A stretch of DNA of 64,000 nucleotides. It comes from Salegentibacter mishustinae. GTDB taxonomy: Bacteria > Bacteroidota > Bacteroidia > Flavobacteriales > Flavobacteriaceae. The DNA lies in assembly GCF_002900095.1 (NCBI RefSeq), contig NZ_LLKN01000002.1, positions 2,480,001 through 2,544,000 of the forward strand, given 5' to 3'. Within the stretch, counting starts at the first letter, position 1. Every line of letters starts with the position of its first letter. A model generated the notes under the pieces. That model worked only from the letters and a program-made list of their open reading frames with translations. It had not been told where the DNA came from and searched no databases. Shown in pieces: positions 33,272 to 35,718 of this stretch. The translations under genes were made by a program, and so were the position numbers.

Positions 33272-34165
33272 TCAATTGACCTTTTTATTCCGTGGATGCG
33301 CCATTTGATGCACCCTACTAAGCTCTGAAATGCTATTATGAGTATACACCTGCGTAGCCGCAAGGCTTGAATGCCCAAGCAATTCTTTTACAGCGTTAAG
33401 GTTAGCGCCCTGGTTCAATAAATGTGTTGCAAACGAATGCCGCAGGATATGCGGACTTCTCTTTATTTTGCCAGATACCTTACTAAAATAATTATTTATA
33501 ATTCTATAAACAAGACTTTCATATAATTTAATACCTTTTTGGGAGACAAATAGATACGGCATCTCCTGCCCGGCTAAAATATTTTCACGTTCCTTTAAAT
33601 AAACCTTCAAGTTTGAAATCACACCCGGCAGGATTGGAATAATTCTTTCTTTTTGTCTTTTACCCAAAACCTTTAACTGCTTCCCGGCAATATTCACATC
33701 CTGGACTTTAATATCTATTAACTCTATACGCCGCATCCCAGTGGTGTAAAAAAGCTCCACGATTAGCCTATCTCGTAATCCTTCAAAATCTGAAGTATCA
33801 ATCTGTTCTAACACTTTTGTTATTTCAGCTTCAGAAAAAGGAACCTGGATCCTGGAAGCGGTTTTTAAAGCTTTGTGTTTTGCTAATGGCGAGAATTCTA
33901 TATCACCTGTTTTTTGCAAAAAGCGATAATACGCTTTTAAGGAAGAAATTTTGCGGTTTATGCTTCGGTTAGAAACTCCCTGATCTACCAGACTAATTAT
34001 CCAATTTCTAATCTGAGAATAATGTAATTTACTTAAATCTTTTTCTTCAAATTCATAAAAGATAAATTCTGAAAAAGATTCTAAATCGGCTTTATAAGCA
34101 GTGAGGGTGTTGGGAGAATATTTTTTCTCTAATTGAAGGTAATCTATAAACTGGGAAAAGGGCAT
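33272..34165 (-). CDS. xerC: XerC/XerD-type tyrosine recombinase
   Basis: 297 residues from the ATG at 34165. N-terminal SAM-like core-binding domain (FIDYLQLEKKYSPNTLTAY) and a catalytic domain with Arg145 (TGMRRIEL), Lys169, His239 and Arg242 (HILRHSFATHLL), His265 (LLGHSSL) and Tyr274 (YTH). It resolves chromosome dimers at dif with a partner recombinase. A longer frame from 34195 would begin inside the upstream hairpin and promoter, so 34165 is preferred. XerC versus XerD cannot be settled here. Its conserved housekeeping setting argues against a mobile integrase. Confidence 0.9.
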   Translation of the reverse strand: MPFSQFIDYLQLEKKYSPNTLTAYKADLESFSEFIFYEFEEKDLSKLHYSQIRNWIISLVDQGVSNRSINRKISSLKAYYRFLQKTGDIEFSPLAKHKALKTASRIQVPFSEAEITKVLEQIDTSDFEGLRDRLIVELFYTTGMRRIELIDIKVQDVNIAGKQLKVLGKRQKERIIPILPGVISNLKVYLKERENILAGQEMPYLFVSQKGIKLYESLVYRIINNYFSKVSGKIKRSPHILRHSFATHLLNQGANLNAVKELLGHSSLAATQVYTHNSISELSRVHQMAHPRNKKVN

Positions 34166-34215
34166 AAAAAAACTGTTGATAGACAAAGTTAGCAAACTTT
34201 AATCTATCAACAGTT
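34166..34215 (-). promoter_or_regulatory. Composite element: rpsU terminator hairpin containing the xerC promoter
   Basis: Minus strand: AACTGTTGATAGA (34215-34203) pairs perfectly with TCTATCAACAGTT (34183-34171), an inner AAAGTT/AACTTT extends the stem, and five more T (34170-34166) lead straight into the xerC ATG. The same bases hold TTG (34210-34208), 16 bases, and TAACTTTG (34191-34184), a good promoter. Confidence 0.82.
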
Positions 34216-34263
34216 ATATTGCTTTTCCGAATAACTTCGGAAAAATTCGATTATATCCTTTTA

Positions 34264-34458
34264 CTAGATATCTTCCTGATCTCTCAAATGCTGAATGTAC
34301 TCGGCTTTTTGAACCTGAGCTCTCTTCGCAACAGAAGGTTTCGTGAAATGCTGGCGGCTTCTCAGCTGGCGCATTGTTCCGGTTTTATCGAATTTTCTCT
34401 TAAAACGCTTCAGCGCTCTATCAATATTTTCTCCGTCTTTTACTGGTATTATTAACAT
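34264..34458 (-). CDS. rpsU: Ribosomal protein bS21
   Basis: 64 residues, highly basic, with the bS21 pattern MLIIPVKDGENIDRALKRFK, KRKFDKTGT and RQHFTKPSVAKR. In Bacteroidia bS21 sits with bS6 and bS18 so that the 3' end of 16S rRNA is held away from mRNA. The gene has its own promoter (34493-34522) and, unlike its neighbours, a very strong Shine-Dalgarno sequence just before the ATG. It ends 49 bases before the hairpin that also carries the xerC promoter. Confidence 0.97.
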   Translation of the reverse strand: MLIIPVKDGENIDRALKRFKRKFDKTGTMRQLRSRQHFTKPSVAKRAQVQKAEYIQHLRDQEDI

Positions 34459-34464
34459 AGTGTC

Positions 34465-34478
34465 ATCACCCCCTTTCT
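34465..34478 (-). promoter_or_regulatory. Exceptionally strong Shine-Dalgarno sequence of rpsU
   Basis: The minus strand reads AGAAAGGGGGTGAT, six bases before the ATG. The canonical complement of a 16S 3' end is AGAAAGGAGGTGAT, so 13 of 14 bases match and the one change (A to G) still pairs as G-U. Upstream regions of rplL, rplA, nusG, tuf, idi and prfC show nothing similar. Confidence 0.88.
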
Positions 34479-34492
34479 TTAGAAATAGGCTG

Positions 34493-34522
34493 CAAAGATA
34501 ATTTAAATCTAAGAACCTACAA
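34493..34522 (-). promoter_or_regulatory. Promoter of rpsU
   Basis: Minus strand: TTG at 34522-34520, a 19-base spacer and TATCTTTG at 34500-34493. The full consensus predicts a leader of roughly 28 bases that is taken up mostly by the Shine-Dalgarno sequence. Confidence 0.8.
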
Positions 34523-34548
34523 CCAATATTTTAATTAATTCTTTCAGT

Positions 34549-35718
34549 CTATTTTGCCGCTGGCTTATACTCTTTTTTATCGATCACCATCTTGGCTATG
34601 ATTTCCCTAAGTATCTCTGAAGTTCCTCCTCCAATAGGCCCTAAGCGGCTATCTCTAAACATTCTCGCTAAAGGATAATCTTCCATATACCCATAACCAC
34701 CTAATAATTGCAGGCAGTCGTAAATAACCTTATCGGCCATTTTAGTAGAAAGTAGCTTAGACATACTGGCTTCTTTCACCACATATTGCCCATCATTAAG
34801 TCGCTTAGCAATAGAATAATTAAATTCCTTATTCATTTCCACTTCGCTGGCCATATCGGCTACCGAATGTCTTAAAGCCTGGAATTTATCTATGGTGGTA
34901 CCAAAAGCTTCTCTTTCGGCCATATAACCTAAGGTATAATCCAGTGCGTATTCAGCACGAGCGTGAGCGTTGATTCCCATAATAAGGCGCTCTAAAGCAA
35001 AATGCTGCATAATATAAGAGAAGCCTTTCCCCTCTTCTCCCATAAGATTTTCAGCAGGAATTTCAACATCATCAAAAGCAAGTTCAGCCGTATCTGAAGC
35101 TCTCCAGCCCAATTTATCTAGTTTTGAAGCAGAAATTCCGGCAGTATCCCTGTCTACAATAAAAATACTCATTCCTTTATTTCCTTTGTCAGGATCAGTT
35201 TTGGCAGCAATTACCAAATAATCTGAATAAACCCCATTTGTAATAAAGGTCTTGGAACCGTTAAGAATATATTTATCTCCTTTTTTGATCGCGGTACTAC
35301 GCATTCCCGCAACATCAGAGCCACCAAAAGGTTCGGTAATACAAAGACAACCAATTTTTTCGCCTTCAATACTGGGCGTTAGGTACTTTTTCTTGATCGC
35401 ATCGTCTCCTTCTTTGTTTACGTGCGTCATTGCTAAATAGGCGTGAGCCCACATAGCAGCTGCGAAACCACCGCTGTTTATCTTTTGAAGTTCTTCCAAA
35501 AAGATTACGGTATAGAAAATATCAAGATCCATCCCGCCATATTCTTCCGGTTGATTAAGGCCAAAATAGCCCATCTCACCAAATTTTTTCCAAATAAAAC
35601 GCTCTATAGTTCCAGATTTCTCCCATTTATCAATATGCGGAACCACTTCTTTTTGCAAAAAGTCCTGAAAACTTTTTCTAAAAAGTTCGTGTTCCTCGGT
35701 AAAATACATTGTATTCAT
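34549..35718 (-). CDS. Acyl-CoA dehydrogenase
   Basis: 389 residues. Family motifs: LCITEPFGGSDVAGM and NGSKTFITNG (substrate/FAD-binding), LGWRASDTAELAFDDVEIP, the QALRHSVADM region, and the C-terminal LLGGYGYMEDYPLARMFRDSR. The flavoenzyme oxidises an acyl-CoA to the enoyl-CoA; chain-length preference is unclear. Either Met1 (35718) or Met4 (35709) may start it; both lie downstream of a full promoter. Monocistronic by spacing. Confidence 0.93.
   Translation of the reverse strand: MNTMYFTEEHELFRKSFQDFLQKEVVPHIDKWEKSGTIERFIWKKFGEMGYFGLNQPEEYGGMDLDIFYTVIFLEELQKINSGGFAAAMWAHAYLAMTHVNKEGDDAIKKKYLTPSIEGEKIGCLCITEPFGGSDVAGMRSTAIKKGDKYILNGSKTFITNGVYSDYLVIAAKTDPDKGNKGMSIFIVDRDTAGISASKLDKLGWRASDTAELAFDDVEIPAENLMGEEGKGFSYIMQHFALERLIMGINAHARAEYALDYTLGYMAEREAFGTTIDKFQALRHSVADMASEVEMNKEFNYSIAKRLNDGQYVVKEASMSKLLSTKMADKVIYDCLQLLGGYGYMEDYPLARMFRDSRLGPIGGGTSEILREIIAKMVIDKKEYKPAAK

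Follow-up and report, generated by a model that had tools for sequence, protein, structure and literature searches.

A strong Shine-Dalgarno sequence before rpsU in Salegentibacter mishustinae, very probably the element of Flavobacteriales through which bS21 controls its own translation

Why does the gene of ribosomal protein bS21 carry a strong Shine-Dalgarno (SD) sequence in a genome that mostly does without them? In this study we focus on the rpsU locus of Salegentibacter mishustinae, within a window of 64 kb (the whole stretch of DNA analysed), for which a sequence-only reading had proposed a near-perfect SD working as a feedback switch for bS21 supply. Such a mechanism has been published for Flavobacterium johnsoniae, in which ribosomes without bS21 favour rpsU (McNutt et al. 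2023, PMC9976891). According to that report, bS21, bS18 and bS6 hold the 16S tail; upon bS21 loss or mutation (Y54A) an rpsU'-gfp reporter rises 3- to more than 4-fold, whereas reporters without an SD hardly change, and purified bS21-lacking ribosomes initiate faster on rpsU mRNA (PMC9976891). A survey of 200 Flavobacteriales usually found a single gene with an outlying SD per genome, rpsU, whose strong SD was found in about 80% and is thus not universal (PMC9976891).

The rpsU product is identified as bS21 by NCBIfam TIGR00030 (S21p, score of 62 bits vs a cut-off of 28.95), and is the sole match to PF01165 in the genome at E <= 0.001. Its residue 54 is the tyrosine that redirects the 16S tail in Bacteroidia, and its best PDB match is the F. 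johnsoniae protein (7jil chain z), residues 1-61 aligning gap-free. The best PDB matches of bS18 and bS6 are also from F. johnsoniae (7jil_w, 2.3e-54, and 7jil_k, 4.3e-51, respectively), and by these matches both pocket proteins appear to be of the Bacteroidia type.

Table 1. Positions of the features discussed; plain numbers refer to the window.
Feature	Position or locus	Strand	Basis or detail
rpsU, bS21, 64 aa, Tyr at position 54	34264..34458	(-)	ORF
Extended SD AGAAAGGGGGTGAT	34465..34478 (read 34478 -> 34465)	(-)	pairing with host 16S tail
-7 promoter-like box TATCTTTG	34493..34500	(-)	fits TAnnTTTG
Strong hairpin followed by U run, 3' of rpsU	34171..34215	(-)	fold -24.7 kcal/mol, z -6.7
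sumT/cobA start, 9-bp SD ACAAAGGAGGTACAAA-ATG	G000:C1:497350 (497348-497363; L008, L236), outside window	(-)	-13.5 kcal/mol
prfB +1 programmed frameshift site AGGAGGTATCTTTGAC	L153 position 1001-1017 (G000:C2:1638659)		16S tail pairing
Order genomes with intact CCTCC and no strong rpsU SD	leaders L196, L194, L200, L185		16S L207, L208, L211, L223

On the minus strand, AGAAAGGGGGTGAT is followed by 6 bases and then by the ATG at 34458-34456 (..TATCTTTGCAGCCTATTTCTAAAGAAAGGGGGTGATGACACT-ATG), just as the sequence-only reading had described. The -7 promoter consensus of Bacteroidota is TAnnTTTG, and the box that fits it ends 34 nt before the ATG; in 75/80 relatives the TAnnTTTG nearest to the rpsU ATG is 29-38 nt upstream of it, and in the other 5/80 this distance is 49-51 nt. 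From the position of this box we infer a leader of about 28 nt. A sigma-70 promoter scan at rpsU found none, which would agree with a promoter of the Bacteroidota type. Downstream of the gene, the hairpin with its U run is a probable intrinsic terminator, which the consensus terminator scan did not report, probably because of a bulge in the stem. Since this terminator-like hairpin follows the gene, rpsU is probably transcribed alone, as in F. johnsoniae; the next genes beyond it encode a recombinase of the XerC/XerD type, with a score under the curated cut-off, and then Hpf. An Rfam scan of 34000-35000 gave nothing at gathering scores. Other candidate elements were set aside, namely a leader mini-hairpin and a start-codon fold, both weak (-4.5 and -5.5 kcal/mol), and a four-codon frame starting inside the SD (ATGACACTATGTTAA), which is missing in relatives without the extra GAT in the leader and is an unlikely start because it is very near the SD core.

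The host genome contains two 16S copies, both ending GGAACACCTCCTTTCT / GGAACACCUCCUUUCU, with the canonical anti-SD CCUCC; the E. coli-type end GGATCACCTCC is absent from the fetched 16S loci. This tail complements the leader, the 14 bases making 12 Watson-Crick pairs, one G-U pair and one mismatch, at the 13th base. The sequence-only reading had given 13 of 14 complementary bases with the odd one as G-U; the G-U holds, and the count had to be corrected because the host tail is not of the E. coli type which that reading assumed. The uninterrupted helix comprises 12 pairs (11 Watson-Crick and one G-U) before the mismatch, from 34478 to 34467 with CACCUCCUUUCU of the 16S tail, and its G-U is the central core base. 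In the numbering of PMC9976891, AGAAAGGGGGTG pairs with 16S 1532-1544, and the G-U faces the central U of CCUCC. The leader:tail duplex has an RNAduplex energy of -19.4 kcal/mol, below the limit of -13 kcal/mol that we used, compared to -20.3 kcal/mol for the GGAGG form and -21.0 kcal/mol for the full complement of the 13-base tail.

These features closely parallel those of the F. johnsoniae system as described in PMC9976891, with the same gene and the same 16S tail positions involved. The helix is of 12 bp here vs 9-13 bp there, the energy above compares to a mode of -20 kcal/mol (obtained with free_scan, so that the scales are not strictly equal), and the leader is predicted at about 28 nt vs 25 nt (PMC9976891). 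Tyr54 is common to both systems, and rpsU is transcribed alone in F. johnsoniae and probably here (PMC9976891). In contrast to that system, the core here is GGGGG, with one G-U pair, and the element is predicted from the sequence.

Strong pairing of this kind is rare in the genome. In the window, both strands included, the rpsU site is the only 12-pair match with the tail, two others reaching 10, and the genome (3.82 Mb) has a single place where AGAAAGGRGGTGAT stands 1-9 bases before an ATG. Of 364 starts sampled (ORFs of at least 100 aa, first ATG, from the window and 20 stretches of 20 kb, 400 kb in all), not one reaches -13 kcal/mol, the strongest being at -12.7, and 2/364 mock regions further upstream do; rpsU itself is too short to count among these starts. 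A scan of 53 window ORFs without gene labels, through which idi, prfC and rpoB were covered, gave -9.3 as the strongest start. The starts of rplL, rplJ, rplA, rplK, nusG, secE, tuf and hpf range from -2.3 to +1.6 kcal/mol, which bears out the earlier statement that rplL, rplA, nusG and tuf have no SD.

Genome-wide, there are 71 places with AAGGRGG 3-14 nt before an ATG vs 120 for the reversed control pattern, and among the 68 distinct places rpsU is the strongest (ATG starts and AAGGRGG only). Twenty-three of these 68 places reach -13.0 kcal/mol, nine of which open at least 60 codons, and of the nine, rpsU and sumT (L008) look like true starts, the places read in detail being L008, L154, L145, L140 and L141. 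As SD-led starts, L142 and L154 were rejected for being out of frame within long open frames, and L141, L145, L031 and L015 for having 85-248 open codons upstream, which makes the ATG internal; L151, also among the nine, has 44 codons upstream. rpsU is an energetic outlier among the starts scanned, within which many equally strong SDs were not found. The claim that the genome otherwise lacks SDs is nearly right, with sumT as one clear exception.

The leader is conserved among near relatives. In 80/80 fetched loci it forms 10-13 contiguous pairs (G-U counted), scored against the tail of the window genome rather than their own; per row, for the window plus the 80, there are 10 pairs in 2, 11 in 44, 12 in 34 and 13 in 1. 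These loci are the best 80 of 560 bS21 matches in titled species genomes, which include many metagenome assemblies, and are near relatives for that reason; the closest bS21 among them, from Salegentibacter agarivorans, is 100% identical, with the same 14 bases before its gene. The distance from the 13-nt match to the ATG varies from 3 to 7 nt in relatives, and so do the surroundings of the SD.

We also compared leaders with their own tails across the order, in a sample of 59 genomes of which 58 have bS21. Leaders were taken from the nearest in-frame ATG in 29 genomes besides our own (one, G023, poorly located). Of 30 genomes searched for 16S, 19 yielded it, giving 16 genomes with both leader and tail; here the 13-base tail was set one base further 3' than for the value of -19.4. 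Nine of the 16 pair strongly (-12.8 to -20.9 kcal/mol), and they include 5/5 genomes of a genus, g7, in which the tail reads ACATCTCATTTT and the leader AAAATGAGATGT, with an energy of -12.8 kcal/mol with its own tail vs -4.5 with that of the window genome. By comparison of these sequences, the g7 leader is changed to match an altered anti-SD, a covariation. An alternative anti-SD, UCUCA, with a matching rpsU leader has been described in Chryseobacterium and related genera (Jha et al. 2021, via PMC9976891 and PMC8710568), to which g7 presumably belongs; it is the same element with compensating changes, as in g7, unlike the window genome with its canonical CCUCC.

That the purines before rpsU arose by chance, or that the leader is kept for other reasons, is hence hardly credible: the leader is indeed short and purine-rich, and nothing else was found in favour of this explanation, whereas the run occurs once in the genome, is conserved in all of the best 80 of 560 bS21 matches and tracks the altered 16S tail in g7.

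The remaining 7/16 order genomes show no strong pairing (+1.4 to -8.3 kcal/mol), and hence not every member of the order has the element. Four of the seven (G033, G068, G042 and G027) have an intact CCTCC, and the switch seems to have been lost, or never to have arisen, in parts of the order.

The G-U core of the window genome has a narrower distribution. Among the window and the best 80 of 560 bS21 matches, GGGGG is found only in the window and S. agarivorans; within the genus, 13/15 genomes match the leader pattern, 7/15 with GGGGG (34467-34478 region) and 6 with GGAGG, and the two that miss it, G003 and G013, read TGAAAGGAGGTGACACT, a GGAGG form one base outside the pattern. The two G-form genomes in which the 16S tail was read (our own and G008; the other five yielded no 16S) both keep CCTCC, so that the change is not compensated there. 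This, together with the presence of the G form in 7/15 genomes and of GGAGG in the others, could suggest that in part of the genus the switch has been adaptively tuned to a weaker form. We consider this unlikely compared to neutral drift, as the G-U core is only about 0.9 kcal/mol weaker than the A-U form and common ancestry could account for the count.

Thus we regard the rpsU SD as very probably the element by which bS21 regulates its own translation in Flavobacteriales. When a ribosome is complete, the pocket of bS21, bS18 and bS6 would hold the 3' tail of its 16S rRNA, and ordinary mRNAs would therefore start without SD pairing. In 30S subunits without bS21 the freed tail would form the 12-bp helix with the rpsU leader and bS21 synthesis would start, until refilling of the subunits with bS21 stops the extra rpsU initiation. 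The feedback switch of the sequence-only reading is in fact the mechanism published for F. johnsoniae (PMC9976891), a precedent which that reading had not mentioned; its parts are present here, and by analogy we infer that it operates in S. mishustinae. Our own basis is the SD, the host tail, the rarity, the conservation, the covariation in a related genus and the pocket proteins; the regulation itself is that of F. johnsoniae.

Several observations weigh against autoregulation: the seven order genomes without a strong rpsU SD, four of them with intact CCTCC, the G-U in place of A-U in the core, and two results from F. johnsoniae in PMC9976891. Truncated-bS21 ribosomes had no rate advantage at 37 °C in a dipeptide assay, one of several (PMC9976891), and wild-type ribosomes too form stable 70S complexes on rpsU mRNA (PMC9976891). 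The latter, and the great stability of the helix, would also fit an ordinary strong SD that gives constitutively high rpsU output independent of bS21. We judge this explanation very improbable, since rplL, rplJ, rplA, rplK and tuf, expected to be highly expressed, have no SD here, and since rpsU output in F. johnsoniae depends on bS21 (PMC9976891).

The exception noted above, sumT, encodes a 261-aa uroporphyrinogen-III C-methyltransferase (TIGR01469, 270 bits) of siroheme synthesis. The gene before it, nitrite/sulfite reductase-like, overlaps the sumT start with its final codons, and the end of this upstream gene also contains the SD, as Lys-Glu codons. AAGGAGGTR precedes sumT in 14/14 close orthologs (-13.5 to -16.8 kcal/mol, the better-pairing ATG having been chosen among candidates), 12 of them from the genus, our own included (84-100% identity), and the other two from one further genus each (87% and 83%). 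Within the genus, 3/15 genomes gave no sumT match, and several have a second copy of 56-60% identity. Among more distant homologs (60-68% identity; 27 fetched, 25 located) 1/25 reaches -11, and as second copies exist in the genus, these 27 may include paralogs.

The codons forming this SD are not the usual ones: in the longer ORFs of the window, AAG makes up 28% of Lys codons and GAG 23% of Glu codons. Over the final 300 codons of the upstream gene, Lys or Glu is unchanged across the 14 sequences at 28 columns (counted from the gene end, assuming no gaps), and only 2 of these end in G in all 14, which are both SD codons; in our own genome 7/28 do. The sequences were located for this count by a pattern containing AAGGAGG, a motif that all 14 had earlier proved to carry without that condition. 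Two rare synonymous codons kept in 14/14 therefore suggest selection for the sumT SD, an apparently selected AAGGAGGT. Against this, common ancestry within a small clade may explain their retention, and the clade was delimited after the results had been seen, at a site found by looking for strong SDs.

In F. johnsoniae, AGGAGGU placed before tuf made the reporter sensitive to bS21 loss (PMC9976891), which makes a similar sensitivity of sumT plausible. We nevertheless raise only tentatively, and with more doubt than belief, that sumT/cobA could be a second target of the freed anti-SD, both in the genus studied here and in two more of the family. Such a conserved second SD in the clade of the window genome is a further difference from the F. 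johnsoniae system as presented in PMC9976891. In the literature on SD and bS21 in Bacteroidetes, uroporphyrinogen was not found among the matches listed.

In this genome mostly without SDs, pairing with the 16S tail is also put to use at prfB, where AAGGAGGTATCTTTGAC stands before the prfB reading frame (480.7 bits). In F. johnsoniae, prfB has a +1 frameshift site with an internal SD-like sequence (PMC8710568). As at rpsU, the mRNA pairs with the 16S tail, but the prfB site acts on elongating ribosomes and not on initiation (PMC8710568).

The rpsU element found here is already known, a further instance of the published system, since the pocket proteins and Tyr54 are present and the mechanism is described in PMC9976891. 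In the published picture, rpsU is the one gene of Flavobacteriales under SD-dependent control, to which sumT could add a second selected SD. Were sumT a second target of the freed anti-SD, ribosomes lacking bS21, or ribosomes ending the upstream gene, would also raise siroheme synthesis, and the reach of the bS21 switch would extend beyond bS21. With a single gene regulated by specialised ribosomes, the rpsU element is a clear example from nature, and the S. mishustinae genome provides one more clean instance of it, with its own 16S tail checked.
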